From: Niabella aurantiaca DSM 17617
GTDB taxonomy: Bacteria; Bacteroidota; Bacteroidia; Chitinophagales; Chitinophagaceae
Assembly (NCBI RefSeq): GCF_000374125.1
Contig: NZ_KB893643.1
Coordinates: forward strand, 62,001 to 126,000
Reading direction: 5' to 3'
DNA: 64,000 bases
Shown here: positions 37,192 through 57,728 of the stretch, in pieces
How the letters are laid out: each line of letters opens with the position of its first letter
Numbering within the stretch: the stretch's first letter is position 1
The notes under the pieces: generated by a model
Database searches by the model: none
What the model saw: the letters and a program-made list of their open reading frames with translations, nothing else
What the model was told of the DNA's origin: nothing
Made by a program: the position numbers and the translations under genes

Positions 37192-37643
37192 AGGCCTGCC
37201 GCCCCTTTTCAGGGCAACCCCAGGCGCGCCTGAAAATACCGGGGCATTACCCATGATCCCGGCACAAGTGTACCGGATCGCAGAGATCTTTACTACCAAA
37301 ACAATTCGAATGCCCGGTTTTCACGGCAGCCGTATGCTGCAACAAGCTGCGGCAATCATAAACCGGCGGCTTCCCAGGCCTGCCCTTTCATAACTATTCT
37401 CTTCTTTCATACACCCGATTGCCAATAGATCCTGAAACAGGTTCAGAAACACAATCTTCCATAATCAGGCTTTTTAATCCCCTCCGGCGGATATATTATT
37501 TTCAGGGAGCATGGATCTTCCATCCGCTGCCGGTCGCTGTCTGGCGTAATAATTGAGTCCTGATCAATACGGCTCCGGAGCAAAACACCGGGGAGGCCGG
37601 ACGGCGGCATGCCTGCCTGCTGCAACAATTAAAATTTTACGTT
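37192..37643. other. Spacer upstream of the first DUF2383 gene
   Basis: 452 bases. Contains a candidate sigma-54 box (37542-37556) and ends in a 17-base sequence TAAAATTTTACGTTATG that also precedes the DUF6496 gene at 48444. Confidence 0.45.
37542..37556 (+). promoter_or_regulatory. Candidate -24/-12 (sigma-54) promoter
   Basis: TGGCGTAATAATTGA, GG and GA 12 bases apart. One base different from the box before the second DUF2383 gene at 54130 (TGGCGCAATAATTGA). The -12 half is TTGA rather than TTGC. Confidence 0.35.
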
Positions 37644-38099
37644 ATGAATTATCAGGACCACAGTGCATTGTTAAACGATCTGATCCGCATTAATAACGAC
37701 CGTATTGCGGGCTACGAAAAAGCAATCGCAGCATTAAAGAGCGGCCAGGACCAGGATCTGAGGGCGTTATTCAGCAAAATGATCACCACCAGTCATGACC
37801 ACAATACCGATCTCTCAAAAATGGTAAGTTTTATAGGCGGAGAGCCTGCAACCGGTACCACCGGATCGGGGAAATTATATCGCCTCTGGCTGGATGTAAA
37901 GTCTGTATTTATTGATATTTCCGATAGAGGAAGCATCCTGATCCACTGTGAACAAATTGAGGATGCTGTGCAGAGCGCCTATAAGACCGCATTAAACGAG
38001 CCCGGGCTGCCCGATGAACTTTTTTCATTGCTCTCGGCGCAAAAAACCGCCCTGTCTGAATCACATAACCAGATAAAAGCGTTGCGGGATAACCGGTAA
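37644..38099 (+). CDS. DUF2383 (PA2169-type) four-helix-bundle protein, paralogue 1
   Basis: 151 residues, all-helical. The pattern LLNDLIRINNDRIAGYEKAIAAL...ISDRGSILIHCEQIEDAVQSAYKTAL matches the DUF2383 family, a ferritin-like bundle without clear metal ligands. Found in stress-induced islands in many bacteria; function unknown. The second copy is at 54130-54600. Confidence 0.85.
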   Translation: MNYQDHSALLNDLIRINNDRIAGYEKAIAALKSGQDQDLRALFSKMITTSHDHNTDLSKMVSFIGGEPATGTTGSGKLYRLWLDVKSVFIDISDRGSILIHCEQIEDAVQSAYKTALNEPGLPDELFSLLSAQKTALSESHNQIKALRDNR

Positions 38100-38403
38100 G
38101 GCGCGCTCATCCCCGGGGTGATTAAAGAGCTATGGACGCAAAGGATTGCTGCCCTGAATTTTTAATTTGCAGGACAACGCTCTGTAAGAGTGCTCTCAAC
38201 TCCCTGTCCGGCTGAAGCCGGATCCACGCCGGCAACATCGACCGGTGCGGCCTGGCGCGGCAGCCGGCAAAAGCACCAATATTCCCTGATGTATAATGAA
38301 GTCTGCCATAAGCAATTTCCACCAGGCCGCCGCAGGCGGGAGTCCGGCACTACAACTGGAGCGCGTATGGTCCCTTCTTAAAAGAGATACTTCCCTATAA
38401 CCA
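38100..38403. other. Short spacer between convergent genes
   Basis: 304 bases, GC-rich in the middle (38205-38275) with several short inverted repeats, none a clear terminator. Confidence 0.35.
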
Positions 38404-38607
38404 TCATTCATCCACCCGGAACGAAACCTTACAGATCACGCCGTAGGAATGGATCGCACCATCGCTGACATGCACCTTAAAATCCTTTACGTAAACCGAG
38501 TCGATGTTCCGGATGGTCTTTGAAACTTCGGTTACAGCATTCTGAATAGCGGCTTCAAATCCCTCCGGCGCAGAAGCGATCACTTCAATAACTTTTACAA
38601 TGGGCAT
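38404..38607 (-). CDS. Dodecin
   Basis: 67 residues from ATG 38607, the normal dodecin length. MPIVKVIEVIASAPEGFEAA, the helix AVTEVSKTIRNI and the strand DFKVHVSDG fit the family. Dodecins form hollow dodecamers that store and protect flavins (FMN, riboflavin) in the cytoplasm. The long leader holds an intrinsic terminator (38767-38796), so expression may depend on read-through. Confidence 0.93.
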   Translation of the reverse strand: MPIVKVIEVIASAPEGFEAAIQNAVTEVSKTIRNIDSVYVKDFKVHVSDGAIHSYGVICKVSFRVDE

Positions 38608-39045
38608 AAGAAATAGATTAAGATTAAAAAATAGTTTTTCGCCTTTAAACCGGTGACTGATTCGGTTACTTCCAAAAATAAGAAAATAAAATGCCAAAAA
38701 AACAGGCAAAATAAGGCCCCGGGGGAATTATTACCACAAACCGGGGAAATGATTGCGATGGCAACGCAAAAAAAGTTCCGGCCGGCAGGCCGGAACCAGA
38801 AGTTCCATTTTTTAACCTTTCTGATTGAACAGAACCCGGTTTTCTGCTGGCCCGCAGGAACCTGTCCGTTTGGGCTCAGTTTAAAAAGAAACTCCGGATA
38901 AAGAGATGAAAAAACAATGCCAACGCGTAACGGTATAACGGGAAACCCGGCATCATTTTTTACCATGTAAAACGGCGGCTGATCTCAGGCATGAAGACAC
39001 ACCGGACCGGTTACCAATTATTGATCATTCTTAAATTTATAAAAA
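38608..39045. other. Spacer between divergent dodecin and DUF4142 genes
   Basis: 438 bases without a gene; contains the minus-strand hairpin at 38767-38796. Confidence 0.4.
38767..38796 (-). terminator. Intrinsic terminator in the dodecin leader
   Basis: Minus strand: GTTCCGGCC-TGCC-GGCCGGAAC followed by seven T. It lies 160 bases upstream of the dodecin start, and no complete minus-strand gene ends just before it, so it may attenuate dodecin transcription. Confidence 0.6.
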
Positions 39046-39615
39046 ATGAAAACGATAAGTACCGCATGGATCGCAGCAATCTTTCTTTTATCCTGTACAA
39101 ACAGCCCGAAAACGCCGGTTGCCCGGGCAGATTCCACCAATGAAGCAAAACAGGACAGTTCTGCCGGTGGGCTTGCGGTAACGGCCGACAGCGCCAGTGC
39201 TGCGTTCCTTGTAAGAGCCGCAGATAACGAGTTAAGGCAAGGCGATCTGGCTGCACTGGCCGGAGAAAAAGCCAGCATCCCCACGGTAAAAGATTTTGCC
39301 GGCATGCTGTCGCAGGCGCACAAACAGCTGAATGAAGCGATCAAAGCACTGGCAGTGCAGAAAAATATTACCATCCCGCCCACTTCCAATGACGAAAGGA
39401 CCATGAGCAGGTTGACGGAACGGCAGGGCAGCGCTTTTGACAAAGCATATATCAACGAAGTGATCGATGGGCATAAAAGCGCGGTTTCCAAATTTGAAGA
39501 CGCCGTAAAACACGCTCAGGACCCGGATGTAAAGGCTTTTGCAGATAAAGTGCTTCCGGAACTTCAGCAGCACCTGGACTCAGCTAAAAGTATAAAAGAA
39601 CGGTATTGGAAATAA
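39046..39615 (+). CDS. DUF4142 lipoprotein, paralogue 1
   Basis: 189 residues with a lipobox (AIFLLSC, cysteine at about 17). The mature helical domain has AADNELRQGDLAAL, VKDFAGMLSQAH and FDKAYINEVIDGHKSAVSKFE, the DUF4142 signature, a ferritin-like periplasmic bundle of unknown function found in stress islands. The other copy is at 54655-55248. Confidence 0.9.
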   Translation: MKTISTAWIAAIFLLSCTNSPKTPVARADSTNEAKQDSSAGGLAVTADSASAAFLVRAADNELRQGDLAALAGEKASIPTVKDFAGMLSQAHKQLNEAIKALAVQKNITIPPTSNDERTMSRLTERQGSAFDKAYINEVIDGHKSAVSKFEDAVKHAQDPDVKAFADKVLPELQQHLDSAKSIKERYWK

Positions 39616-39922
39616 AATGAAGGCCCTTTGATGGCAGCCCCTGTTGATACAACAACAGCCGTCCGGGGTTGCCGGGTGTGCCAGCGCGCCGAAGGGATTG
39701 GTGTAGCGCAAGAACAAGATGCCCGGGATCAGGTTTTTCTTTGTTTCCGGGCATGTTTTTTTTCTTTCCGGTTATGGGTAACATCGTCCCCCTTAAAGAG
39801 CTGCTCCTCTCCCTCCCTGCTGTCGATGTCATCTTTATTCTGACGTCGCCCGGTCATTTTTGCCTGCTGCCGGTTTGTTTTCGGCGCGGCTTTCAACGTT
39901 GCTTTCATGGATCTGTATTTTA
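39616..39922. other. Spacer after DUF4142
   Basis: 307 bases between convergent genes; holds the terminator at 39719-39763. Confidence 0.4.
39719..39763 (+). terminator. Rho-independent terminator for the DUF4142 gene
   Basis: Stem ATGCCCGG (39719-39726) with CCGGGCAT (39747-39754), a 20-base loop, then eight T. Confidence 0.6.
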
Positions 39923-40819
39923 TTAAAAAAGAAACGGGGGAACGATCGGAGGCAGCAATTCGTCATTGACCTCCTCATAAGGCACCCCGTTGACAAAATG
40001 GACAAGATCTCTGTTCAGGCGTCCCCGGTGTGTGTAGAACAGTCCATGGGGCGCACCTGCGTAAACGCCATACTGAATCTGGGGCAGCAACTCCGCAAGC
40101 CGGTCGGCACTGACCTCTTTCGGTACGATCGTATCTTCATCCCCGTGTATCAAAAGAACCGGAAGATCCAACGCATCCAGATCGCCCCGGAAATCGGTAG
40201 CGGAAAAACTGGTAATGCAATTTACGGTAGCATGCATGGCCGCCCGGGATGCCAGGTGCACATAATATTCCTGCAAGGCTTTGCCTGCCGACCTGTTCAG
40301 CAGCGATGTACCGAAGAACTGCTTCACAAATGCCTCCAGGAAACCGATCCGGTCGGTGCGTACCCCGGAGACCATATCTGCAAAGACTTCCGCGTCCATG
40401 CCATAAGGGTTCCCGTCCGTTTTCATCAGGAAGGGCAATACCGGGCTGATGAATACGGCGCTGCTGACGCGGCTCCGGCCATATTTTTTCAGATACCGGG
40501 CCACTTCCCCGCTGCCCATTGAAAATCCCACCAATATGATCTCCCTCAGATCAAGCTGAAGGATCAGCTCATTCAGATCGGCTGCCAGCGCATCATAACC
40601 GTATCCCTGCCAGGGTTTGCTGCTTTCTCCAAAACCCCGCCGGTCGTATGCGATGACCCGGTTCCCGTTCTCTACAAGATCCGGCAGCTGGTACTCCCAC
40701 ATTTCCATACTTAGCGGCCAGCCATGGATGAGCAGCACGGGCTGACCTTTCCCATAATCACAGTAAGCGATCTCCAGTACTTCTTCCTGCATCGGATCTT
40801 TATACGAAATCTTTTTCAT
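39923..40819 (-). CDS. Alpha/beta hydrolase (non-haem haloperoxidase/esterase type)
   Basis: 298 residues from ATG 40819. Oxyanion strand LLIHGWPLS (29-37), nucleophile elbow GFSMGS with S100, acid loop HGDEDTIVP and catalytic histidine GAPHGLF. Resembles arylesterases once called cofactor-free chloroperoxidases. No signal peptide, so cytoplasmic. Function in the island is unclear. Divergent from ackA. Confidence 0.88.
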   Translation of the reverse strand: MKKISYKDPMQEEVLEIAYCDYGKGQPVLLIHGWPLSMEMWEYQLPDLVENGNRVIAYDRRGFGESSKPWQGYGYDALAADLNELILQLDLREIILVGFSMGSGEVARYLKKYGRSRVSSAVFISPVLPFLMKTDGNPYGMDAEVFADMVSGVRTDRIGFLEAFVKQFFGTSLLNRSAGKALQEYYVHLASRAAMHATVNCITSFSATDFRGDLDALDLPVLLIHGDEDTIVPKEVSADRLAELLPQIQYGVYAGAPHGLFYTHRGRLNRDLVHFVNGVPYEEVNDELLPPIVPPFLF

Positions 40820-41019
40820 ACGCTTTTTTTTATTCAGATACCCTTTTAAACGCCTCAAGAAACAGGCCCAAAGCCCCGTAGCCGGAACAGGGCCACCGGC
40901 AAAGCACCCTGCCGCGGCTGTGTGGATTTTTTTACACTCCTGAAGAAAAAATACCACAGGATCAGGACCGGCAAAGAGGATCCGGCAACTTTTAGCAGCC
41001 GGTCCCTGATAAAAACAGC

Positions 41020-41034
41020 TGGCGGACTTTTTGC
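41020..41034 (+). promoter_or_regulatory. Candidate sigma-54 promoter of the ackA-xfp operon
   Basis: TGGCGGACTTTTTGC has both halves (TGGC and TTGC) at the exact canonical spacing. Best such site in the window. The predicted start of transcription (about 41046) coincides with the annotated ATG, so either the mRNA is leaderless or translation starts at the TTG at 41088, which has AAGGA just before it. Confidence 0.5.
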
Positions 41035-41045
41035 CCTTTTACAGC

Positions 41046-42278
41046 ATGGGCACTTCTGCAACAACAGGCAATCCGGTTAAAAAGGAATTGCTGATCTCTG
41101 TAAACCCCGGATCTTCCTCCCTCAAATGTTCTGTGTACGTATTAAAAGAGCGTCTGCGCCTCGTTATGAAAGCAAGCATTACCGGCGCCGGATCCGGCCG
41201 CTGCCGGCTAAAGCTGGAAGACCGCTTCAATCAGCAGCATATCGAAAGAACGTTGCAACTGGAGACGGTCCAGGAAATAGTCCTCTTTATGACCCGCTTG
41301 CTGGTTGCGTATTGCCGGGGCTGGAAGATCGCCGCCATCGGGCATCGCATCGTGCATGGAGGAAACAATATCGCCAATACGGAAGAAATCAATGACTTCT
41401 TTTTGAAGAAACTGGAAAGCGTAAAGGTTCTGGCGCCCCTGCACCTGCCCGGCGCGCTGACCACCATTGCCGCCTTTCGCGCTATTTTCCCCCGGGTGCT
41501 GCAGGTTGCCTGTTTCGACACCACCTTTCATAAAGACATGCACTTTGAGGCCCGTCATTATGCGCTTCCGCGGTATTTGTGGAAAAGCGGGCTGATCCGT
41601 TATGGATTTCACGGGCTCTCCTGCCTCTCGGTTTTGCTGCAATTAAAAAGCACAGGAATGGATATCCGCAAATACAAGATCATCATAGCGCACCTGGGAA
41701 GCGGTTCCAGCGTCACAGCCGTTCAATACGGAAAAAGCGCAGACACCACCATGGGCTTCACACCCGCCGGCGGGCTCATTATGAATACCCGGTGCGGTGA
41801 CATTGACCCCGGTGTGGCGGTGTACCTGCTGGCGCAAAAAAAGCTTACGGGCAAGGGACTGGACCTGCTGCTGAACAAGGCTGCGGGATTAAAAGCGCTT
41901 TCGGAAAGCGACAGCAGCATTTCCGCATTGCTGGAACGGGAGGGGTCTGACCAGCGTGCGGCAGAGGCCATCAGCATGTATTGCTACCAGGTAAGAAAGC
42001 AGATCGGCGCAATGGCTGCTGTACTGAGTGGTGTAGACCTGCTGGTCTTTACGGGCGGGATTGGCGAGCACGTGCCCGAGGTAAGAGAGCGGATCTGCGA
42101 AGGATTGCAATTCCTCGGTATCCAGGTCGATCAGGAGCGCAATAACAGCCCCGCCACCGGCCTCTGCCGTATTTCGGCGCGGACGGGAGTTTATGTCGTG
42201 CCGGCGGACGAGGAGTGGATTATTGCCCGGCAAATAAGCGACCATCTTGCAAAACAACGCACACTCAAAAGATCTTAA
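41046..42278 (+). CDS. ackA: Acetate/propionate-family kinase with altered active-site loops
   Basis: 410 residues from ATG 41046; TTG 41088 is an alternative start. Motifs in order: NPGSSSLK, GHRIVHGG, FDTTFH, YGFHGLSC, HLGSGSS, MNTRCGDIDPG, FTGGIGEH. Compared with E. coli AckA, PLHNP is PLHLPG, GTSH is GLSC, HLGNG is HLGSG, GTRSG is NTRCG and GEN is GEH. Arg, Asp and Glu catalytic residues remain. It should make ATP and acetate from acetyl-phosphate supplied by the phosphoketolase whose ATG begins one base after its stop. Cytoplasmic. Confidence 0.88.
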   Translation: MGTSATTGNPVKKELLISVNPGSSSLKCSVYVLKERLRLVMKASITGAGSGRCRLKLEDRFNQQHIERTLQLETVQEIVLFMTRLLVAYCRGWKIAAIGHRIVHGGNNIANTEEINDFFLKKLESVKVLAPLHLPGALTTIAAFRAIFPRVLQVACFDTTFHKDMHFEARHYALPRYLWKSGLIRYGFHGLSCLSVLLQLKSTGMDIRKYKIIIAHLGSGSSVTAVQYGKSADTTMGFTPAGGLIMNTRCGDIDPGVAVYLLAQKKLTGKGLDLLLNKAAGLKALSESDSSISALLEREGSDQRAAEAISMYCYQVRKQIGAMAAVLSGVDLLVFTGGIGEHVPEVRERICEGLQFLGIQVDQERNNSPATGLCRISARTGVYVVPADEEWIIARQISDHLAKQRTLKRS

Positions 42279-42279
42279 A

Positions 42280-44625
42280 ATGACCACAGAAAAAGAGCTG
42301 GAAGCTATACATCGTTACTGGCAGGCCGCCAATTATCTTGCGGCTGCGCAGCTATACCTGAAAGACAATATCCTGCTGAAAAAGCCGCTGCTGCCGGAGC
42401 ACATCAAGCCTCGCTTACTGGGACATTGGGGCACCTGCCCGGGCCTCAACCTGATATATGTGCACCTGAACCGGCTGATCCGCAAGACCGGAGCCTCCAT
42501 AATGCTGATCGCCGGTCCGGGACACGGGGCGCCCGCCATTTATGCCAATACTTATCTCGAAGGCAGTTACTCCGCCGTCTATCCCGCTATCTCCCGCGAT
42601 GAAGCAGGCATGGCCAAAATGGTACACCAGTTCTCCACGCCCGGTGGTGTGGCCAGCCATGTAAACGCCGTTACGCCAGGCGCCCTGCACGAGGGCGGTG
42701 AGCTGGGTTACTGCCTGGCGCACGCTACAGGAGCCGTTTTTGATAACCCGGATCTGATTGCCGCCTGTATCATTGGCGATGGCGAGGCCGAAACCGGTCC
42801 GCTGGAAGGGAGCTGGAAACTTACCCGGTTCCTGAATCCTGCCCGGGACGGCATTGTACTTCCCATATTGCACCTCAACGGGTATAAGATCTCCAGCCCT
42901 GCCCTGATGGCGCGCATGGACGATCCGGACCTTGTAAAACTATTTGAGGCACGCGGATATACCGTACGCATTGTGGAAGGCAAGGACCCCATGCAGGTAC
43001 ACCGGGTTTTTGCCCGTATATTGGATGAGGCCTATGCACAGATCATTGCTCTGAAGCAAAACGCGTTAAAAAAAGAGAATGGCCCGCTGATGGCGTATCC
43101 CCTTATTATCCTGCGTACGCCAAAAGGATGGACGGGACCGGCTGCATGGGACGGCACAAAGATCGAAGGCAGCTTTCATGCACACCAGGTGCCGCTGGAA
43201 GATGTGCGGACCGACGGGGGCCAGCGGCTGTTGCTGGAGCAATGGCTGCGCAGCTACCATCCGGAAACCCTGTTTACAGGGAGGGGCACCCTGGCAGGTC
43301 CGTTGGCGGCGCTGATACCACCGGGGAAGAAGAAAATAGGAATGTCGCCCTATGCCAACGGCGGCAGCCGGAGCAGGGAGCTGATATTGCCGGACAAGAT
43401 CGCTTATGCCGTTACTATTACCGCCCCCGGTAAGGAAAGGGCGCAAGCTACCAAAGAGCTGGGAAGCTATATCCGCGATGTTTTCCGGCTGAACCGGGCG
43501 CAACAGAATTTCCGGCTTTTCTGTCCCGACGAAGCACTGTCTAACAAACTCGAGGCCGTATTTGAAGCAACGGGCCGCTTTTACCTGGGCAGCCGGCAGG
43601 ATGCCGACGAATATCTTTCCGGCAAGGGAAGGGTTATGGAAGTATTGAGCGAGCATCTTTGCCAGGAATGGATGGAAGGTTACACCTTAACCGGCCGGCA
43701 TGGCCTGTTTGTGTGTTATGAGGCCTTCATTACCCTTATCGATTCCATGTTTAACCAGTATGCAAAGTGGCTGAAGCAATGCAGGGAAGTACCCTGGCGG
43801 AAGCCCCTTCCATCTTTTAATTACCTGCTAACCTCCCATACCTGGCGACAGGACCACAATGGCTACAGCCACCAGGGGCCCGGGTTTATTGAAACCGTGA
43901 TCAATAAAAAAAGCGATATCGTCCGCATTTATTTACCGCCTGACGCCAACTGTCTCTTATGCACGATGGAACATTGTTTCCGGTCAAAAGACAAGATCAA
44001 CCTGGTCATTGCCGGGAAGCAATCCGCATTACAGTGGCTCAGCTTAAAGGAAGCAGCCGAACATTGCAGGGTGGGCATATCCGTTTGGAAATGGGCGGGC
44101 AGTGCTGCCAAAGAGCAACCGGATATCGTTCTCGCCTGCGCCGGCGATGTGCCTACCACCGAAACCGTGGCAGCGGCGTGGTTGTTAAAAAAGCATCTCC
44201 CGCGTTTTAAGGTACGGGTGGTCAATGTAACCGACCTTATGGCCCTTTCCCCCGCAGGCTATCATCCGCATGGTTTGCCGGAAGCACTTTTTTCGTCGCT
44301 CTTTACAGATGACAGGCCGGTTATTTTTGCCTTCCACGGCTACCGGCGGATCATTCATGACCTGATCCACGGGAGATCCCATCCGACGCGTTTTCATGTG
44401 CGTGGCTACAATGAAGAAGGGACGACCACCACTCCTTTTGATATGACTGTACTGAACGGCATCAGCCGCTATCAGCTGGCAATGGACGCCCTTACAAAAG
44501 CAGGCGCCGGTGGCGATGCAGGCTATGTGATCCGCCTGTTTGAAGAAAAGCTTAAGCAACATCACCTTTACATCCGTCAGCACCTGGATGACCTGCCCGA
44601 GATCAAAGAATGGCAGTGGTCCTGA
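42280..44625 (+). CDS. xfp: Xylulose-5-phosphate/fructose-6-phosphate phosphoketolase
   Basis: 781 residues from ATG 42280, directly after ackA (one-base gap). Thiamine-diphosphate motif GDGEAETGPLEGSW, plus GPGHGAPA, HWGTCPGLNL and SHTWRQDHNGYSHQGPGF are phosphoketolase signatures. It splits xylulose-5-P or fructose-6-P with phosphate into acetyl-phosphate and an aldose phosphate. With the kinase it forms a short route from sugar phosphates to acetate and ATP. Cytoplasmic. Which ketose is preferred cannot be told. Confidence 0.95.
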   Translation: MTTEKELEAIHRYWQAANYLAAAQLYLKDNILLKKPLLPEHIKPRLLGHWGTCPGLNLIYVHLNRLIRKTGASIMLIAGPGHGAPAIYANTYLEGSYSAVYPAISRDEAGMAKMVHQFSTPGGVASHVNAVTPGALHEGGELGYCLAHATGAVFDNPDLIAACIIGDGEAETGPLEGSWKLTRFLNPARDGIVLPILHLNGYKISSPALMARMDDPDLVKLFEARGYTVRIVEGKDPMQVHRVFARILDEAYAQIIALKQNALKKENGPLMAYPLIILRTPKGWTGPAAWDGTKIEGSFHAHQVPLEDVRTDGGQRLLLEQWLRSYHPETLFTGRGTLAGPLAALIPPGKKKIGMSPYANGGSRSRELILPDKIAYAVTITAPGKERAQATKELGSYIRDVFRLNRAQQNFRLFCPDEALSNKLEAVFEATGRFYLGSRQDADEYLSGKGRVMEVLSEHLCQEWMEGYTLTGRHGLFVCYEAFITLIDSMFNQYAKWLKQCREVPWRKPLPSFNYLLTSHTWRQDHNGYSHQGPGFIETVINKKSDIVRIYLPPDANCLLCTMEHCFRSKDKINLVIAGKQSALQWLSLKEAAEHCRVGISVWKWAGSAAKEQPDIVLACAGDVPTTETVAAAWLLKKHLPRFKVRVVNVTDLMALSPAGYHPHGLPEALFSSLFTDDRPVIFAFHGYRRIIHDLIHGRSHPTRFHVRGYNEEGTTTTPFDMTVLNGISRYQLAMDALTKAGAGGDAGYVIRLFEEKLKQHHLYIRQHLDDLPEIKEWQWS

Positions 44626-44635
44626 CCAGGGGGCG

Positions 44636-46012
44636 TTATTCCGGCTCCTGGAATAGTTTTAGTTTATTGTACAATGTTTTCCGGTCTATTTTCAGCAGCT
44701 CCGCAGCCTTTTTCTTATTGAAATTCACTTTTTGCAAAACAGCCATGATCGCCTGGTATTCCGCGCGGCCGGCCACTTCCTTCAACAGGTCCCGGGGCGG
44801 CCCCGCCGGCATTTCCGTTTCCGGACCGGCCTGCTTATAAAAATCCATGATCTCGGGGGCCAGCACCTCCTCTTCCACCACGCCGCCGGCCGGTGTCAGC
44901 AACACTGCCCGGCGCACTACATTGCGCATCTCCCGGAGGTTGCCCGGCCAGTCGTATGCCTGAAAAGCTTCCAGCACCTCATCAGAAAAGCCGTTCACCT
45001 GTTTTTCGCTTTCTGCGCAGGCATTTGTCAAAAAGAATGCAGCCAATGGCCGGATATCATCCCGCCGGTCGCGCAGGGCCGGCAGGTGAATGGCAAATTC
45101 GTTGAGCCGGTGGTACAGGTCTTCGCGGAACCGGCCCTTTTGACAGGCGATCTTCAGATCCTCATTCGATGCCACAATGATCCGTACATCCGCTCCGATC
45201 TCCCGATTGCCTCCCACCCGTTTAAATTTCCGCTCCTGGATGATCCGGAGCAGAATGGCCTGGATATCGGGCGACAAATTGGCGATCTCATCAAGAAAGA
45301 GCGTACCGCTGTTGGCCATTTCAAAATGCCCTTCCTTATCCTGCAGGGCGCCCGTAAAAGCGCCTTTTACATGCCCGAAGAGCTCACTGCCCGCCAGCTC
45401 CCTGGAAAGCGTACCGCAATCGAGGGCAACAAAAGGCTTTCCGGAGCGCTTGCTGTTGTCGTGTATGGTCCGGGCGATCACTTCTTTGCCGGTGCCGCTC
45501 TCGCCATATAAAATAACACTGTAATTAGTGGGCGCTACTACATTCACCTGCTGGTACAGCGCATGGGTGGCCTTTGCCTTGCCAATATAATATTCCTCCG
45601 AAAAAGCACCGGTACTGCTTTGCGACACCGGTGCCGGCCCGCTGCCCTCACTCCGGGTGATCATTTTTTTCAGCAACTCCAGCACTTCTTCCGGAACCAG
45701 GGGCTTGGGGATGTAATCAAAAGCGCCCAAACGCGTCACTTCGATCGCCGGCCGGATGTCTGAATAGCCGGTAATGATCAGAATGGCAGCCTGATTGTTC
45801 AAATATTTCAACTCCCGCACCAGCTGGGCGCCATCCATATCCCCTAACCGGTAATCGGCGATCACCGCATCAAACCGGCCGGTCTTGTATTTGGCAATTC
45901 CTTTATTACCGGAGTAAGCCGTTTCTACCTCATAACCGTTCTTTAAAAGGTAACGCGTCAGTAATTGGCATAAATCGGCATCATCATCAATGATTAGAAG
46001 TTTATGGGGCAT
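44636..46012 (-). CDS. NtrC-family sigma-54-dependent response regulator
   Basis: 458 residues: receiver (1-120, D53 phospho-acceptor), AAA+ domain with Walker A GESGTGKE (170-177), the sigma-54 contact loop GAFTGA (217-222), and a C-terminal Fis-type helix-turn-helix (KKKAAELLKIDRKTLYNKL). It activates RpoN promoters after phosphorylation. It ends 10 bases from the phosphoketolase stop (convergent) and lies near a kinase and a lone receiver. Probable activator of the -24/-12 sites listed here (inference). Confidence 0.95.
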   Translation of the reverse strand: MPHKLLIIDDDADLCQLLTRYLLKNGYEVETAYSGNKGIAKYKTGRFDAVIADYRLGDMDGAQLVRELKYLNNQAAILIITGYSDIRPAIEVTRLGAFDYIPKPLVPEEVLELLKKMITRSEGSGPAPVSQSSTGAFSEEYYIGKAKATHALYQQVNVVAPTNYSVILYGESGTGKEVIARTIHDNSKRSGKPFVALDCGTLSRELAGSELFGHVKGAFTGALQDKEGHFEMANSGTLFLDEIANLSPDIQAILLRIIQERKFKRVGGNREIGADVRIIVASNEDLKIACQKGRFREDLYHRLNEFAIHLPALRDRRDDIRPLAAFFLTNACAESEKQVNGFSDEVLEAFQAYDWPGNLREMRNVVRRAVLLTPAGGVVEEEVLAPEIMDFYKQAGPETEMPAGPPRDLLKEVAGRAEYQAIMAVLQKVNFNKKKAAELLKIDRKTLYNKLKLFQEPE

Positions 46013-46105
46013 ATATTGAGGTTTTTTTTACACACACAATGTACAGCGCAAATCGTGCCGCTTTTTTTTACGAACAAATAACGGAGCCGGCAATAACGTT
46101 TTTTT

Positions 46106-46120
46106 TGGCAGCATAATTGT
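46106..46120 (+). promoter_or_regulatory. Candidate -24/-12 (sigma-54) promoter
   Basis: TGGCAGCATAATTGT, GG and GT 12 bases apart, just before the lone receiver gene. The predicted transcript start (about 46132) almost coincides with the GTG start, as at ackA. Confidence 0.4.
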
Positions 46121-46132: not shown

Positions 46133-46552
46133 GTGGAAGGTAGTTTTACCGAATATCAATCCGTACACGCGCCACCGGAACAGCCGTTAAAAACGTTGAT
46201 CATCGACGATGAAGATGATATGTATTACCTCCTCAGGAATATTCTGAAACAACGTAATATCCAAACGGTGTTTGCCGGGTCCATTGGTGAAGGGCTGAAG
46301 GTTCTGAAACAGAACCCGGACGTTTTTTTGATCTTCCTTGACAATCGCCTGCCTGACGGCCTGGGTTTTCAGTACATACAGCAGCTCAAGGCCATTGCAG
46401 ATGTTACCGTGGTCATGATGACCGCCTATGATACCAGTTATGACCGGAAGATGGCGAAAAACAACGGCGCCGACGATTTTATCGGCAAACCCTTTACCAG
46501 GGAGGCCATCCTGTCGATCGTAGACCAGGCCCCTTCTGCAGACAATACCTGA
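46133..46552 (+). CDS. Single-domain response regulator (receiver only)
   Basis: 139 residues from GTG 46133; TTG 46196 just before IIDDED would give a shorter form with a normal leader. Receiver motifs IIDDEDD, phospho-acceptor D70 (IFLDNRLPDG), MMTAYD and KPF. No output domain, so it probably relays phosphate or works by protein contact. It lies between the NtrC-type regulator and the histidine kinase, whose 3' end is 14 bases away. Confidence 0.9.
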   Translation: MEGSFTEYQSVHAPPEQPLKTLIIDDEDDMYYLLRNILKQRNIQTVFAGSIGEGLKVLKQNPDVFLIFLDNRLPDGLGFQYIQQLKAIADVTVVMMTAYDTSYDRKMAKNNGADDFIGKPFTREAILSIVDQAPSADNT

Positions 46553-46566: not shown

Positions 46567-47961
46567 TTACAGCAGGTTCAGTGAAACCGTAAACGTGCTT
46601 CCCTTATCCTTTTCGCTCTTCACCCGGATACTCCCTTTATGATTCAGGATGATATTCTGTGTATTGGTCAGTCCGAGCCCGTTTCCTTTTTTCTTCAATG
46701 TAAAATAAGGTTCAAAGAGGTTTTGCAGGGTGCTCTCATCCATGCCGCTTCCATTATCCCTGATCTCCACAATGCACCGCTCCCCCTCTTTTCTGGTGAC
46801 CAGCTCCAGGATACCGTCCCGCCCGTCCATGGCCTCAATTGCGTTCATAATAATGTTCAGGAAAGCCAGCTTTATCCGCTCCTTGTCCACCATTACATCA
46901 CAAAGATCGGGCGAATAGCTTTTAATAACCTGCACTTTGCGCAGCAGCAGCCGGTCCTTCGCCATATCAAGGCTTTCATCCAGGATCTTGTTGACATCTT
47001 CTTTTTGTTTGTCCAGCTGTATGAATTTAGTCGCATTCAGCAGGTCGGCCACCATCTGGCTGATGCGGGCCGAGTTCCGGCTGATGATACTGATCAGGAG
47101 CTTCCCTTCCGGATCCTGGTCGATGCAGGAAATATCCTGCAGCTGCTCCGTTGCCAGGGCTATATTGGTCAGCGGGTTCCGAACTTCATGGGCCACCACC
47201 CGCGATACCCTGCCGATGCTTGCCAGTTTTTCAATACCCTTGAGCTCGCTCAGTATTGTATTCTTATCACTTAGTTCCTTTACATTGCTCTCCAGCTCTT
47301 TCCGGTACTGGTCAGCAATGCTGTTTGCCTTCTTTTTTTGCCGGTACTGACTGTTAAAGGTAAAGATCGCATACAGGGCAGCTATCAAAGCCATGCACAG
47401 CGACAGGATCGTCATGGCCTCGGTGCTGGTATAAAAATTATTGAGCTTTGTGATGCTTTTTTTCATCAGCCGCTCCTCGATACCGGTCATTTTCTGGATC
47501 TGCTCATAGATGCTGTCGGCTTGCGCCAACTGTGCCGACCCTACCGTTGTCCGCTTCAATGTAACCGGTGCTTTCTGATGCGCCAGCACCGCTGCAGACA
47601 GCTCCGACAGCCGCCGGTCCGTCATGGTATACAACCGCTTTTCATTTGCCGATTGTACAGGATCGGTATTGGTAAGTTGCTTTACTTCACCGTGCAGCGT
47701 CACGAGGTTGGACCGGGCCGTGTAAAATCCGTTCAGGAACTGGGGCAACCCGTTGATGATATAGCCGCGCACATTGGATTCGGCCTCGCCCATTGCCATT
47801 TTTATATCCCCCATCTTATTGATCAGTGTATAGTTATTTACGATCCAGTTCTTTTCCCGCTGTAACCGGCGGTTGGTAGACAGGATCAGGATATAGGACA
47901 CGAGCAGCAGCAGCGACGAAAGCGCATAGCCAAGCCTGATTTTATTTAAGGACAATATCAT
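46567..47961 (-). CDS. Membrane sensor histidine kinase with CHASE3-like domain
   Basis: 464 residues. Membrane helices at about 8-27 and 183-202 bracket a helical periplasmic domain of CHASE3 type (about 35-180, ESNVRGYIING). HisKA has VAHEVRNPL with H258; HATPase has N-box NIIMNAIEAM, DNGSGMD and GNGLGLTN. The likely partner is the NtrC-type protein, the lone receiver, or both. Signal unknown. HEVRNPLTN is the H-box type often paired with NtrC regulators. Confidence 0.92.
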   Translation of the reverse strand: MILSLNKIRLGYALSSLLLLVSYILILSTNRRLQREKNWIVNNYTLINKMGDIKMAMGEAESNVRGYIINGLPQFLNGFYTARSNLVTLHGEVKQLTNTDPVQSANEKRLYTMTDRRLSELSAAVLAHQKAPVTLKRTTVGSAQLAQADSIYEQIQKMTGIEERLMKKSITKLNNFYTSTEAMTILSLCMALIAALYAIFTFNSQYRQKKKANSIADQYRKELESNVKELSDKNTILSELKGIEKLASIGRVSRVVAHEVRNPLTNIALATEQLQDISCIDQDPEGKLLISIISRNSARISQMVADLLNATKFIQLDKQKEDVNKILDESLDMAKDRLLLRKVQVIKSYSPDLCDVMVDKERIKLAFLNIIMNAIEAMDGRDGILELVTRKEGERCIVEIRDNGSGMDESTLQNLFEPYFTLKKKGNGLGLTNTQNIILNHKGSIRVKSEKDKGSTFTVSLNLL

Positions 47962-48443
47962 AATAAAACATTGAAATAAACCGCCGGAAGAACAGCACAG
48001 CGGACACGGGGTTTACAAAAGGCAGATCCCAAAACAAGAAAATAATGAAGACCCTCACATCACTTCATTGATCTTTACACCCGTGATGTTCCTGAATCTC
48101 CGGAGGGCCGTACACAAGATCAGGTTCCGTAAAAGTACATAACTTTTTTAATATCATCCCTCAGGACGAATCCGGGGTGGGTCAGACAGACACCTGTATG
48201 CCTTTAGTCCGAACATCCGGAAATCTGAACGGCATCCTTCAGGGAAATCCGCCAACTTCTGCGGTGGGGAAATAATTCCACATCCGCATATCCAAAGCTG
48301 TGCCTCGCCGGGAGCCACCTGGCTGACACCACGCTGTCCGCGCCCAAAAAAACGTTCCCGCAGCTGCCGCGCGGAATGTATGCAGTTGTAGCAGCAGCTA
48401 TAACTGGCAAGGGTTTTGTCCGTAACAAATAAAATTTTACGTT
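47962..48443. other. Spacer upstream of the DUF6496 gene
   Basis: 482 bases without a supported gene. Contains a candidate sigma-54 box at 48405-48419. Confidence 0.4.
48405..48419 (+). promoter_or_regulatory. Candidate -24/-12 (sigma-54) promoter
   Basis: TGGCAAGGGTTTTGT, GG and GT 12 bases apart; predicted start about 48431, 13 bases before the ATG at 48444. Confidence 0.4.
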
Positions 48444-48641
48444 ATGGCAAAGTATTCAAAAAAAGCAGGCGATAAGGTAGAAAAAGCCATGCATGAAATG
48501 AAACACGGCGATTTAAAAAGCGGCAGTGGTAAAAAAGTTACCAGCCGGAAACAGGCCATTGCGATCGGCTTATCCGAAGCCCGCGATGCCGGCGCCAAAG
48601 TACCTAAAAAGGCTTCCCGAAAAAAAGCAGCAAAGGCCTAA
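48444..48641 (+). CDS. DUF6496 small basic protein
   Basis: 65 residues, lysine-rich: MAKYSKKAGDKVEKAMHEMK, LKSGSGKKVTSRKQAIAIGL, SEARDAGAKVPKK. Matches the widespread DUF6496 proteins; its basic character suggests nucleic-acid binding, but no function is established. Preceded by the same 17-base leader as the first DUF2383 gene. Confidence 0.85.
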   Translation: MAKYSKKAGDKVEKAMHEMKHGDLKSGSGKKVTSRKQAIAIGLSEARDAGAKVPKKASRKKAAKA

Positions 48642-50344: not shown

Positions 50345-50524
50345 CTATGGATTTTTTTTTGCGCGTTTTTTCACTTTTTTCTTTTGTTCCGGTTCAAATA
50401 CCTCTTCCAGCTTTTGCATGGGTGTGGAAACCGGCCCTTCCATATGCTCCTGCGGATCGGTATTGTGCAGGGTTTCCGGATCGGGCTTTATTGTTTCTTC
50501 CTTTTTTTTCTGCTTTTTTTCCAT
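50345..50524 (-). CDS. Small lysine/glutamate-rich protein
   Basis: 59 residues from ATG 50524 to TAG 50345. Very charged ends (MEKKQKKKEE and QKKKVKKRAKKNP) around a conserved-looking centre, NTDPQEHMEGPVSTPMQ. I have seen the DPQ-HM-GP pattern in small Bacteroidota proteins, but no function is known. Likely unstructured and cytoplasmic. Confidence 0.6.
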   Translation of the reverse strand: MEKKQKKKEETIKPDPETLHNTDPQEHMEGPVSTPMQKLEEVFEPEQKKKVKKRAKKNP

Positions 50525-50683
50525 GATCTTTCTTTTTGATGAACTTTATAATAAACGGAAAATGATGCCAATAAGGCCCGGTTGTGATGTGCATGATTTT
50601 TGAAGTCTTCTTAACGCAGCATCATTTATTTGTACCGGGCAGGAAGATCCGGATAAATACGTATCATCTAAAAACAAGAATAT

Positions 50684-51460: not shown

Positions 51461-51488
51461 AAGGCCTGTAACATTAACCCCTGCAAAC

Positions 51489-54035: not shown

Positions 54036-54068
54036 ACAGGAAGCGCCCTTTCTTGCCTTTTATAAATT

Positions 54069-54083
54069 TGGCGCAATAATTGA
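54069..54083 (+). promoter_or_regulatory. Candidate -24/-12 (sigma-54) promoter overlapping a -7 element
   Basis: TGGCGCAATAATTGA, nearly identical to the box before the first DUF2383 gene. TAAATTTG (54063-54070), a TAnnTTTG match, overlaps it, so housekeeping control is an alternative. Confidence 0.35.
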
Positions 54084-54129
54084 AAATTTTTAAGAGACCC
54101 GAATTGCCGATAAACGACCCAAAAAAAAC

Positions 54130-54600
54130 ATGATGCATCATACAGAAAACAACATCCGGGAAATGGAAGTGCTGAACGATCTCATGGAGATCCACACGGA
54201 AAATATCGAGATCTATGAACGGTTTAAAGTGCATTGCGCGGGATGCTACCTCGCCGAATTCATTGAAGACCTGATCCAGCAGAGCCATTGTTTTATCTGG
54301 TCGATCCGCTCCTACCTGCAGGGGACAGCGTCCGGCAGGCCCAATACCGGCAACCGGGCCGTGTACGAGGTTTGGAACGGCCTACGGGCGGTATATACAG
54401 CCAACAGGCCTCCCGGGCTCCTGGCAGTACTGGAATACAACGAAGACGCCGCGATAAGGGCCTACGAAATTGCACTGGCCGGCGATGCCCTGAACATCGG
54501 GTTGCAGGATATACTGCAGTATCAAAAAGAAATACTGATCGATAATCAAAAGAATATCCGGCGCATGCAGCATCCGTGGGGAGCCTGTTCCGCTTCTTAA
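54130..54600 (+). CDS. DUF2383 four-helix-bundle protein, paralogue 2
   Basis: 156 residues (ATG 54133 also possible). Pattern LNDLMEIHTENIEIYERF...LEYNEDAAIRAYEIAL fits DUF2383. Unlike copy 1 it carries a CAGCYLAEF motif with two close cysteines and an extra one in the tail. Function unknown. Confidence 0.82.
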   Translation: MMHHTENNIREMEVLNDLMEIHTENIEIYERFKVHCAGCYLAEFIEDLIQQSHCFIWSIRSYLQGTASGRPNTGNRAVYEVWNGLRAVYTANRPPGLLAVLEYNEDAAIRAYEIALAGDALNIGLQDILQYQKEILIDNQKNIRRMQHPWGACSAS

Positions 54601-54654
54601 TGCCTGTACCCGCTAAAGGTAGTGAAGACGATACCGGACTCAAAATACAGACTG

Positions 54655-55248
54655 TTATCGTTTCAGAAGGCTGTCTGTATGCCGGGCATGCTGCAGGTGC
54701 CGCTGCAGTACCGGAAGTTTGCCTTCCGCCCATTGTGCCAGACGCTGATCTGCACCATTACCGGCATATTTCCGGAAGACCTCCACGTCCTCCTCATGAT
54801 CCTCCACCATCAGCGACATATATTCTTTATCAAAATCAGCGCCTTTCAGCGTCTGCAGGGCTGTATATTTCCTTTTCATACTCTCGCTCAGCGAGTCGGG
54901 CAGCGAAATGCTTTTCTGCTCTGCCAGTACTCTTAATTCATTATTAGCCGCTGAATGATCTTTGATCATCATTAAGCCGAATTCTTTTACATCCTCCGAC
55001 CGGCCGTTCTGCTGGGCCAGCTGCCCCAGCTGTACTTCCAGCAGGCCGCCATCGGCTGCCGTTACCGCAAAATCAGCATCCCTTTCAAATGTTGCCAGAG
55101 ACGGGTTTGCCGAATCGCTCCTGTTAAATTTGAGCTTATTGGAATCCCCCGCGGCCCTTTCGCTGTCCGGTGCTGTGTTACAAGCTGCTGCAATCATGCC
55201 CAGCAGCAGGATCATCCGGAATCGCATTCCCAAACAATAGCGTATCAT
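54655..55248 (-). CDS. DUF4142 lipoprotein, paralogue 2
   Basis: 197 residues from ATG 55248; ATG 55227 (MRFRMILLL) also fits a signal peptide. Lipobox cysteine in IAAACN. The mature domain holds TAADGGLLEVQLGQLA, DVKEFGLMMIKDHSAAN and FDKEYMSLMVEDHEEDVEVF, the DUF4142 signature. Two close HD/DHE motifs could bind metal (inference). Convergent with the DUF2383 gene. Confidence 0.88.
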   Translation of the reverse strand: MIRYCLGMRFRMILLLGMIAAACNTAPDSERAAGDSNKLKFNRSDSANPSLATFERDADFAVTAADGGLLEVQLGQLAQQNGRSEDVKEFGLMMIKDHSAANNELRVLAEQKSISLPDSLSESMKRKYTALQTLKGADFDKEYMSLMVEDHEEDVEVFRKYAGNGADQRLAQWAEGKLPVLQRHLQHARHTDSLLKR

Positions 55249-55326
55249 AAAAATAATTTTAAGTTGTTTAATAATCGGCAGCAGCACCGCCCCGGGCTCT
55301 ATCCTGTTTGCCACAGCCCGGCTGCT

Positions 55327-56187
55327 TTATCCATTGATGATCTCCCCGCCATTGGGATGCAGCACCTGCCCCGTCATAAAGCTGGCATCATCGCTGGCCA
55401 GGAATAAATAACACGGAGCGATCTCATTGGGCTCACCTGCCCGCTCCATGGGCACATCGCTGCCAAAACCGGCTACCCGCTCTTTATCAAATGAAGAAAC
55501 AATGAGCGGTGTCCATACCGGCCCCGGCGCAACAGCATTTACCCGGATCCCTTTTTTTACAAGATTGCCCGCGAGGCTCCGGGTAAAGCCAACAATGGCC
55601 CCCTTGGTAGACGCATAATCCATCAGCGTGGGGCTGCCCCTGTAGGCGGTCACTGACGTGGTATTGATGATACAGCTTCCTTTCTTCATATGCCTGATCG
55701 CATATTTCGCCAACCAGAAACAAGAAAAGAAATTGGTATAAAAGGTCTGTAAAAGCTGTTCGGTACTAATGTCTTCGATCGATGACTGCACCCACTGGGT
55801 TCCTGCATTATTCACCAGGACATCGAGCCCGCCAAAGGCCTTTATCGTTTCTTCAACAACCTTCCGGCACTGTGCTTCCTCGCTGATATCCCTTTTGACC
55901 AGGCGACAGATGCCACCATCCGCTGCGATCAGGCCCTGGGTAGCAACGGCATCTTCATCCTCGCTCAAATACACGATCACCACCCGGGCGCCTTCTTTTG
56001 CAAAGAGCAAGGCAACCGCCTTGCCAATGCCGCTGTCGCCCCCGGTGATCAATGCTGTTTTGCCGGCAAGCTTTCCTCCCTCGTGCTGCTTCGGTTCGCT
56101 CTCCGGCCGGGGAAGCATTTCATGCTCCATTCCGGGTCTGGCTTGTATCTGGCCGGGCCGCAGCTTTTCTGTTTTCTCTTTTTCCAT
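55327..56187 (-). CDS. Short-chain dehydrogenase/reductase (general-stress type)
   Basis: 286 residues. An extra N-terminal 40 residues (charged, Q/E-rich) precede the Rossmann domain: TGGDSGIG (48-55), NNAG, and the catalytic S178, Y191, K195 (YASTKGA). The long N-terminus places it with the stress-induced YhdF/YghA/GsiB-neighbour type SDRs. NAD(P)-dependent; substrate unknown. The upstream region has a weak sigma-54-like box. Confidence 0.92.
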   Translation of the reverse strand: MEKEKTEKLRPGQIQARPGMEHEMLPRPESEPKQHEGGKLAGKTALITGGDSGIGKAVALLFAKEGARVVIVYLSEDEDAVATQGLIAADGGICRLVKRDISEEAQCRKVVEETIKAFGGLDVLVNNAGTQWVQSSIEDISTEQLLQTFYTNFFSCFWLAKYAIRHMKKGSCIINTTSVTAYRGSPTLMDYASTKGAIVGFTRSLAGNLVKKGIRVNAVAPGPVWTPLIVSSFDKERVAGFGSDVPMERAGEPNEIAPCYLFLASDDASFMTGQVLHPNGGEIING

Positions 56188-56232
56188 GATGCTGTTTTAC
56201 CAATGAATAAAATACCTGCTCTTCTCAACAGG

Positions 56233-56247
56233 ACAGGCAGTGCGCCA
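56233..56247 (-). promoter_or_regulatory. Weak candidate -24/-12 promoter of the SDR gene
   Basis: TGGCGCACTGCCTGT on the minus strand has GG and GT at the right spacing but CTGT instead of TTGC. Confidence 0.2.
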
Positions 56248-56378
56248 ATACCGCGCGTACCACGCCGGAACGCATGTTCTTTCTGAACCTGAAACCAGCG
56301 TTACATAAACGGGAAAAGCGCCCTTCCCTCCCGTTCTTTTCCGGATATGCGTTGGGGTTTTAGACAATCCATGTACGG

Positions 56379-56726
56379 CTATTTATTCTGGACACGCATT
56401 TGCCCCATATCAAACTGCTGGTTTGAAAAAGAAGCGGAAAAGTGATGCACATATTTTGCAAATGCAGGAAGGGTCAGCGCTCCCTTGAACTTCTTGACAG
56501 GAAGCTCCCCGCTATCTGCCGGTGCTCCCTTTGTATGATCGTATGCATACAATACAACAGCGAACCGGTCTTTTTCAAAGGTAATTTTAAGCGTTACGGG
56601 TGTAAACCGCTCAGAATGATAATTGGGGAAGATGGCTGCGAGGCATTCATCAAGCGCCCCATTCAGGTCAAGGGCCGCATTCCCCGCAAGGTCATGCGCC
56701 GATAATTCAAATGGTTGTTCTTTCAT
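56379..56726 (-). CDS. Small uncharacterised protein
   Basis: 115 residues with alternating strands (FTPVTLKITFEKDRFAVVLYAYDH), ending in FSNQQFDMGQM. No recognised family. May be transcribed with the two genes upstream on the same strand (56896-57165 and 57185-57640). Confidence 0.6.
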   Translation of the reverse strand: MKEQPFELSAHDLAGNAALDLNGALDECLAAIFPNYHSERFTPVTLKITFEKDRFAVVLYAYDHTKGAPADSGELPVKKFKGALTLPAFAKYVHHFSASFSNQQFDMGQMRVQNK

Positions 56727-56895
56727 TTTTACATCCTCGCTTTTTAAACAATCCTCCTGCGATCGCGAAACACCAGATCGCCGGCAGGCTTCTGTTATCT
56801 CCTGTTATAATGACGCCAGGCACTGGTCTGCCGGCAGCAGGAGGGGCAGCGCACGGGGCCTGCAGTACCCATTCTGTGGATTTTTTTCCGCACGG

Positions 56896-57165
56896 TCATC
56901 CATAAAACGGCGATCCTGCACCTGCCTGCACAGCGCTCCTTTCCCCGGAAAAATAGTCAAACGCCACTACGGCATGGTCCTTCACACACACTTCAATATA
57001 AAAATCGAAGACCTGGTAGCGTGTATAGACGAATTCCTGAACGGATCTTTCAGAAACAAACCGGGCTTCCCACAAAACCTGAAGCTGCTCTTCTTCACTG
57101 GCCCGAAGAAATTGATCCAGCGTCATAAGGGCGTCTTGTTTTTTATCGTTGATTGTATCGAACAT
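56896..57165 (-). CDS. Small uncharacterised protein
   Basis: 89 residues: LDQFLRASEEEQLQVLWEARFVSE followed by a beta-hairpin (YQVFDFYIEVCV). Starts 19 bases after the end of 57185-57640, so probably an operon partner. No family recognised. Confidence 0.6.
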   Translation of the reverse strand: MFDTINDKKQDALMTLDQFLRASEEEQLQVLWEARFVSERSVQEFVYTRYQVFDFYIEVCVKDHAVVAFDYFSGERSAVQAGAGSPFYG

Positions 57166-57184
57166 GCCTGTATCTTACCCGCCG

Positions 57185-57640
57185 TCAACCGGCAACGAGC
57201 CTCCGGGAATGGCCCATTCTTCTTTTATAAAAGAGGCCGAAAACAGCTCCTGCCGCTATAAGGGCGCCGATCCCGATCTTCAGATAGCGGCTGAGTTCCG
57301 TTCTCATTCCGGGTTTGTGTTTTTCGATCTCACCGACAGCTTTTATAAACTGTGCAATCTGTTCATCTGAATACACACCATAGGCGTCCAATAGTGTACC
57401 CCGGGCCCCGTCATGCGTTCGCAAAAGATACAATATGGAACTATCGGCAGGATCGCTCTCGCCTTCAAACCGGTAAAAGTTCTTTATGGTCACTTCATCG
57501 GGTAAGTACACTTTTCCAGCACCGTTGTAAGAAAGCCCCTGATCATTCATAAAAAAATCCCGGGTATATCCTGCCTTCACGGCGCTATGGATACACTCGC
57601 TAATGGTATTCATTTTCTGGGAAGACGTTTCTTTTTTCAT
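57185..57640 (-). CDS. Uncharacterised stress-island protein with C-terminal membrane helix, paralogue 2
   Basis: 151 residues from ATG 57640. The start is chosen to match its paralogue (KKETSS) and because the predicted sigma-54 transcript begins near 57651; ATG 57655 is upstream of that point. Core NFYRFEGESDPADSSILYLLRT identical to the copy at 25925-26371; C-terminal helix IGIGALIAAGAVFGLF and basic tail. Function unknown. Confidence 0.8.
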   Translation of the reverse strand: MKKETSSQKMNTISECIHSAVKAGYTRDFFMNDQGLSYNGAGKVYLPDEVTIKNFYRFEGESDPADSSILYLLRTHDGARGTLLDAYGVYSDEQIAQFIKAVGEIEKHKPGMRTELSRYLKIGIGALIAAGAVFGLFYKRRMGHSRRLVAG

Positions 57641-57662
57641 AGTCCTGTTTATCATAGCCGTA

Positions 57663-57677
57663 ACAAAAATGCTGCCG
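57663..57677 (-). promoter_or_regulatory. Candidate -24/-12 (sigma-54) promoter
   Basis: CGGCAGCATTTTTGT on the minus strand, sharing GGCAGCAT and TTGT with the box before the lone receiver (46106). Confidence 0.4.
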
Positions 57678-57713
57678 GTATCTGTAAAAGAATGCCGTTC
57701 CTTCCGGAGCGTA

Positions 57714-57728
57714 CGGCCTGCTTATTGC
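57714..57728 (+). promoter_or_regulatory. Candidate -24/-12 (sigma-54) promoter
   Basis: CGGCCTGCTTATTGC, perfect -12 half; predicted start about 57740, 16 bases before the ATG at 57756. Confidence 0.4.

Follow-up and report, generated by a model that had tools for sequence, protein, structure and literature searches.

The 64,000-nt window analysed here (positions 62,001 to 126,000 of contig NZ_KB893643.1 of Niabella aurantiaca DSM 17617) holds an island of genes, among them ackA-xfp for acetate kinase and phosphoketolase, a lone receiver, a DUF6496 protein, two DUF2383 or DUF2383-like proteins and two copies of a membrane-anchored protein, with an NtrC-type activator in their midst. Boxes resembling the -24/-12 promoters of sigma-54 (RpoN) precede these genes, which raises the questions of whether the island is a regulon and whether that activator drives all of it. 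A preliminary description, made from the letters alone, had proposed that one two-component system drives acetyl-phosphate metabolism and a set of small protective proteins. Judged by sequence, a sigma-54 regulon is well supported, and the fixed spacing, position and conservation of the boxes strongly support their dependence on RpoN. We consider it likely that the island is such a regulon, with the central activator acting via a palindrome at part of the promoters.

Sigma-54-like boxes upstream of the island genes

The eight boxes of the preliminary description, five exact and three weaker, are all present (Table 1). Their form had been given as TGGC-N8-TTG, which is a miscount: the true form is TGGC-N7-TTG (equivalent to GG-N10-G), and the N8 form occurs at chance frequency, with 14 matches in the window versus 15.4 in shuffled sequence. 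Using gene calls from our own codon-scored caller, we found 15 matches to TGGC-N7-TTG in the window, five of them intergenic and no more than 150 bp upstream of a gene; these are the same five that had been singled out as exact cases just before genes. With spacers of 4, 5, 6, 8, 9, 10 and 11, the same test yielded 0, 1, 0, 0, 1, 0 and 0. The accompanying argument from rarity (about one match in 16,000 positions) is invalid as it was put, because the raw frequency of the pattern is ordinary both in the window and in the genome; its position compensates. Across 355 upstream regions from 12 genomes, drawn from the entire window and from island stretches of relatives, TGGCR-N6-TTG had 30 sense matches, compared with 0-5 for each of the spacers 2-5 and 7-11.

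We examined conservation by counting exact TGGC-N7-TTG matches anywhere in the 220 bp upstream of homologues in related genomes (numbered G001 and so on). The exact box was found in eight of nine rows for the receiver, the single miss being a 34% paralogue, as well as in 4/5 rows for the second DUF2383-type gene (b), 6/14 for the first (a) and 2/4 for ackA. DUF6496 loci carried it in 13 of 26 cases, against a single match for spacers 3-6 and 8-11 together; broken down by genome type, the DUF6496 box was present at 7/9 loci in genomes with an activator of at least 54% identity, 1/4 in rpoN2 genomes (see below) and 5/13 elsewhere. Homologues of the membrane-anchored proteins of the window had the exact box in none of nine rows and NGGC-N7-TTG in seven; GGCA(A/G)(A/C)ATTTTTG preceded 10 of 30 homologues of copy 2, where the exact box was found twice. 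A further exact box, at 27330-27344 and absent from the earlier list, is conserved in three relatives (G005, G006 and G010), in each of which it lies upstream of a homologue of 89-90 aa of the 77-aa protein. As a control, eight other island genes gave the exact box in 2/57 rows. It was found in 3/10 rows for the DUF4142b gene and in none of the rows for DUF4142a (0/7), LigD (0/8) and xfp (0/3). In alignments, the boxes are retained amid much diverged DNA, most clearly at GGCAGCATTTTTG upstream of the membrane proteins and at TTGGCGCAATAGTTGA upstream of DUF2383a.

A form built from these boxes, TTGGCRNNATANTTG, had 25 matches across the seven Niabella genomes that have a close activator, compared with 18 for the reversed control, and 14 of the 25 fell inside the island (G010 3/3, G005 3/4, G006 3/5, own genome 2/4, G008 1/2, G015 1/2, G011 1/5). 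The receiver box takes the form TTGGCA-NN-ATAATTG(C/T) in seven genomes of the genus. It ends 12-15 bases before the conserved GTG start of the receiver in seven genomes, and the corresponding distance to the ackA start codon is 11 bases, or 12 in G005. Given these distances, the ackA and receiver mRNAs are predicted to have their 5' ends at the start codons or a few bases away, and the ackA mRNA would be leaderless, a class making up 5.5% of the mRNAs examined in Flavobacterium psychrophilum (PMC9723704).

Genome-wide enrichment of the pattern, which had been proposed as a check, is weak and is seen only for a stricter form. In the 5.93-Mb genome, loose TGGC-N7-TTG had 1169 matches versus 1134 for the reversed pattern, and of the 30 of the 1169 places examined, one was intergenic and none was upstream of a gene. 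The stricter pattern, TGGCRNNNNTTTTG, had 63 matches versus 57 reversed; 12/63 were intergenic and 6/63 upstream of a gene, compared with 3/37 and 2/37 for the N8 form (37 of 94 places examined). The N8 form, with 94 matches genome-wide versus 66 reversed, also exceeds its own reversed control. A greedy gene caller, since replaced by the codon-scored one, had placed 9/63 matches with the right spacer and 3/37 with the wrong one upstream of genes.

The activator and a candidate enhancer palindrome

The NtrC-type activator with GAFTGA that had been noted in the middle of the island was confirmed by Pfam as a receiver, an AAA+ domain and a Fis-type helix-turn-helix (HTH). Homologues of 67-81% identity are found in six genomes of the same genus (G005, G006, G008, G010, G011 and G015). 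A tree of 29 activator rows, rooted at the midpoint only and with the long-branched G030 locus excluded, contains one supported group of 25 rows that includes the activators linked to a second rpoN; within this group, one supported subgroup, of eight rows, contains those six, and another contains the seven Niabella activators.

A palindrome, TGTGGAAATAATTCCACA, lies close to the activator and to a few of the target promoters and is a candidate enhancer. In 831 kb of examined sequence it occurs at 20 places with up to three mismatches, 18 of them outside called genes, whereas 40 random palindromes of the same half-composition averaged 0.5 places and never exceeded three; the count is partly circular, because the palindrome was chosen after seeing its hits. 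Allowing one mismatch to TGTGGAAWTWWTTCCACA, 13 places were found among the matches listed for 59 whole genomes. Seven of these lie less than 4 kb from the activator (G000, G010, G011, G015, G018, G022 and G025), and the other six (G001, two each in G003 and G004, and G016) are far from the activator or in genomes with no close activator; G020 and G023 had no palindrome at two mismatches among the matches listed. One of the G003 places is 4 kb from a membrane-protein homologue.

To relate the palindrome to the boxes, we made a matrix of 11 palindromes from relatives and used it to score 43 sigma-54 promoter rows (42 distinct sites), the 5% level being set by 316 other upstream regions. Six rows reached that level: DUF6496 and ackA of the window, the carbamoyltransferase of G005, G006 and G011, and the 89-aa gene of G006. 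The enhancer of an NtrC-type activator would be expected some 70-150 bp in front of its targets. The palindrome centre is 132 bp upstream of the DUF6496 box, and degenerate copies are centred 81 bp upstream of the receiver box, where the match has p = 0.11, and 71 bp upstream of the ackA box. Since only these 6/43 rows reach the 5% level, the palindrome explains part of the set at best.

The carbamoyltransferase just mentioned lies outside the window; it is a protein of 572-574 aa encoded next to the kinase gene in G005, G006 and G011 (L117:3809-5527, L119:3626-5350). It has a box upstream, with the palindrome 72-93 bp before the box, and this box may simply belong to the tail of the reading frame in front of it.

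A second element, GCGCAAATCGTGCCG, is conserved in the intergenic region between activator and receiver, exactly in five of eight genomes and nearly invariantly in all eight. It lies upstream of both the receiver box, at roughly 54-60 bp, and the activator start, at about 34 bp, and may be an operator of the activator gene. We rejected it as a shared enhancer: the own genome has one mismatch-free place, and only receiver promoters match well. Weaker matches were seen before one membrane-protein gene each in G005 and G006. A dyad search of the 43 promoter rows returned this receiver element and no other clear motif.

These observations suggest the following scheme. RpoN polymerase would occupy the GG-N10-G boxes before the lone receiver, both DUF2383 genes, DUF6496, ackA-xfp, the two membrane-anchored proteins and the 77-aa protein. 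The CHASE3 kinase probably phosphorylates the neighbouring NtrC-type activator, as gene order suggests, and the activator would bind TGTGGAAATAATTCCACA and the weaker copies at 46017 and 40921 and, at the DUF6496, receiver and ackA-xfp promoters if not at others, open the polymerase. For the remaining promoters, weaker sites or a different activator in the same cell would probably serve. Judging by their protein families and by neighbours such as Ku-LigD, the products are likely to protect against stress. As for acetyl phosphate, boxed ackA-xfp was found in two genomes, this one and G005, among the island stretches of relatives examined; a role of the metabolite in the system is a guess.

Several results weigh against a regulon of this extent. 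The loose pattern lacks genome-wide enrichment and that of the stricter pattern is weak, as described above. In the 355 upstream regions the antisense count was 15 at the right spacer compared with 0-2 at others, an excess that we ascribe, provisionally, to shared divergent regions. At -12, C is found in just one of the five exact boxes, the one before ackA (GC at -13/-12, the other four having GT or GA); the receiver box has GC there in G005, G006, G008 and G010. The palindrome was picked after seeing the data, reached the 5% level in so few promoter rows, one of which (G011) was in the training set, and had no match at that level upstream of the boxes of the DUF2383, membrane-protein, 77-aa and basic-protein genes. 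Islands of rpoN2 genomes show no box enrichment (2/219 regions with the right spacer), and seven further genomes of the activator group had the box in 1/93 regions. Finally, a regulon under the single local activator should lose its boxes where the activator is absent, and this is not what we see: G009 and G016 keep the DUF6496 box and G014 keeps the membrane-protein box, although no close activator was found in these genomes among the at most 28 candidates scored per genome.

This persistence is also an argument for an alternative to which we give considerable weight, somewhat short of an even chance, namely that the boxes are real sigma-54 promoters served by several activators, with the local one controlling part of them, for example the receiver and DUF6496, and the island being a neighbourhood of stress genes instead of one regulon. 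That few promoters carry the palindrome fits this alternative, as do three further activator-like proteins in the own genome at E <= 1e-60. Against it, TTGGCRNNATANTTG boxes accompany the activator, above all in G010, G005 and G006, and degenerate palindromes precede ackA and the receiver. The proposal that one two-component system drives the whole set is supported in part, a candidate enhancer linking the activator to some of the targets; it is not supported for all of them, given the few palindrome-bearing promoters and the boxes without a close activator.

It is improbable, in our estimation, that the boxes belong to another sigma factor, through a -7 element of the primary factor SigA or an extracytoplasmic function (ECF) promoter, with an accidental -24/-12 likeness. 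Three of the five exact boxes end alike, in AATTG, and TAAATTTG overlaps the box at 54069, but the exact spacing is kept while the middle varies (AAGGGTT, GGACTTT, AGCATAA), and, apart from the overlap at 54069, whose start is farther upstream, the SigA -7 consensus TAnnTTTG (PMC9723704) is absent from the five boxes and does not occur up to three bases in front of them. Raw counts near expectation in the window and genome would allow a degenerate pattern spotted after the fact, but spacing, position and conservation among homologues make chance a most improbable source of the boxes.

A second rpoN in related genera

The genome of the window has one rpoN match, which encodes 494 aa and contains ARRTVAKYR. 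All 59 genomes searched, the own included, have rpoN. Six (G018, G020, G024, G025, G027 and G031), which represent six different genera out of 19 other genera of the family that the search covered, have a second copy, rpoN2, and in all six it stands directly before the activator homologue (L129, L308, L310, L312, L315 and L318). RpoN2 shares 31-37% identity with the RpoN of the window genome and keeps ARRTV(A/T)KYR. A -24/-12-like box precedes rpoN2 in 6/6 cases, in GG(C/T) forms in G018, G024, G025 and G027 and GGA forms in G020 and G031. The palindrome, with one to four mismatches, is found 144-166 bp before the called rpoN2 start in G018, G020, G025, G027 and G031; a different palindrome, TTCCCCAAATTGGGGAA, is upstream of rpoN2 in G024. 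Possibly, rpoN2 and the activator form a self-activated RpoN2 operon.

General stress responses are run elsewhere by RpoS, SigB or EcfG, and to our knowledge the corresponding regulator in this part of Bacteroidota has been little studied. We offer the tentative suggestion, which we would sooner bet against than for, that in Chitinophagaceae sigma-54 and this activator lineage constitute the general stress response, and that one branch gained a private, self-activated RpoN2 beside the activator. With defined promoters, one activator, a candidate enhancer and a second RpoN in related genera, the system is compact and testable, and it would give context to proteins of unknown function, including DUF2383, DUF6496 and unnamed small proteins.

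The system is of a known kind, sigma-54 promoters with an NtrC-type activator, to which it adds the candidate palindrome and, in six other genera, rpoN2 beside the activator lineage. The domain order (PF00072, PF00158, PF02954) and GAFTGA of the activator are those of NtrC-family two-component activators, but here the gene has a CHASE3 kinase and a separate lone receiver as neighbours. The sigma-54 regulon of F. psychrophilum (motif SM4; PMC9723704) is also from Bacteroidota and has typical -24/-12 elements derived from mapped transcript ends; it differs in that its targets include GroES-GroEL, a protease, gliding motility and exported proteins, and DUF2383, DUF6496 and phosphoketolase are absent from the target passages of that paper. 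Sigma-54 regulons computed across phyla are predicted to include stress and two-component genes outside Pseudomonadota, Bacteroidota among them (passages of PMC12316311), and neither 'Chitinophag' nor 'phosphoketolase' occurs in the main text of that study, which puts multiple rpoN copies at about 5% of organisms. The RpoN paralogues of Rhodobacter (Cereibacter) sphaeroides resemble the rpoN2 arrangement, in that more than one RpoN exists, each with its own role, and RpoN3 has a cognate activator (passages of PMC12316311 and PMC11999139); that system belongs to another phylum and has other targets, whereas the window's own genome has a single rpoN.

Five Bacteroidota names do not occur in PMC3162934, a search for rpoN2 in the Bacteroidetes literature returned only Xanthomonas titles and passages of PMC12316311 on Rhodobacter and Ralstonia, and one for Niabella and sigma factors returned only a genome announcement. 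We found no publication on this system in a search whose scope lay outside subscription journals, preprints and supplements.

Features of the window and minor observations

The coordinates of boxes, genes and palindromes are collected in Table 1. Other island genes, assigned by Pfam, encode DUF4142 proteins, an alpha/beta hydrolase, a low-affinity iron permease, a CinA-like protein, Ku, LigD and a short-chain dehydrogenase.

Table 1. Boxes, genes and palindromic elements of the island, in window coordinates.
Feature	Position	Strand	Remarks
Membrane-anchored protein, copy 1	25925-26371	-	148 aa
Box GGGCTTCATTTTTGC	26395-26409	-	Before membrane-anchored protein copy 1; GG-N10-G geometry, first base changed
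77-aa protein (MRPP...)	26988-27221	-	No Pfam family
Exact box TGGCAGACCTTTTGC	27330-27344	-	108 bp before 77-aa gene
Exact box TGGCGTAATAATTGA	37542-37556	+	Before DUF2383 gene a
DUF2383 protein a	37644-38099	+	Pfam
Degenerate palindromes TGTGGATTTTTTTACACT and TGAAGAAAAAATACCACA	40921-40958	+	Before ackA; 4 mismatches each
Exact box TGGCGGACTTTTTGC	41020-41034	+	Before ackA; ATG after 11 further bases
ackA, acetate kinase	41046-42278	+	Start is the ATG adjoining the box; Pfam, with xfp over 41031-44625
xfp, phosphoketolase	42247-44625	+	Open frame from 42247; caller start 42280; Pfam
NtrC-type activator	44636-46012	-	Receiver, AAA+ with GAFTGA, Fis-type HTH; Pfam
Degenerate palindrome TGAGGTTTTTTTTACACA	46017-46034	+	Between activator and lone receiver; p = 0.11
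Element GCGCAAATCGTGCCG	46046-46060	+	Activator-receiver intergenic region, conserved in 8 genomes
Exact box TGGCAGCATAATTGT	46106-46120	+	Before lone receiver
Lone receiver	46133-46552	+	Pfam; conserved GTG start
CHASE3 histidine kinase	46567-47961	-	Pfam
Candidate enhancer palindrome TGGGGAAATAATTCCACA	48265-48282	.	Only place in own genome with at most 1 mismatch to TGTGGAAWTWWTTCCACA, among matches listed
Exact box TGGCAAGGGTTTTGT	48405-48419	+	Before DUF6496
DUF6496 protein	48444-48641	+	Pfam
Exact box TGGCGCAATAATTGA	54069-54083	+	Before DUF2383 gene b
DUF2383-like protein b	54130-54600	+	24.0 bits, under Pfam cut-off of 30.8
Palindrome-like site TGTGGATTTTTTTCCGCA	56875-56892	.	148 bp before 115-aa gene without GG-N10-G box
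Membrane-anchored protein, copy 2	57185-57655	-
Box CGGCAGCATTTTTGT	57663-57677	-	Before membrane-anchored protein copy 2; GG-N10-G, first base changed
Box CGGCCTGCTTATTGC	57714-57728	+	Before small basic protein; GG-N10-G, first base changed; weakest of set
50-aa basic protein	57756-57908	+

We also noted other box-like sequences. TTGGCGGTATAATTG, found outside the island in G008, G011, G012 and G016 (including loci L255 and L270), may be a further conserved sigma-54 promoter or may lie in coding sequence. DUF4142b homologues of G005, G006 and G010 (L114, L116 and L113) are preceded by one identical sequence, TTGGCCCGCTGCTTGC, within a longer conserved stretch. TTGGCGCACTGCCTGT, at 56233-56248 on the minus strand, has GG-N10-G geometry 45 bp before the short-chain dehydrogenase gene and was not seen in G010. 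TGTGCATGATTTTTGA, at 50588-50603 before Ku, resembles a -24/-12 box with the first G replaced and is alike in G005, G008, G010 and G015.

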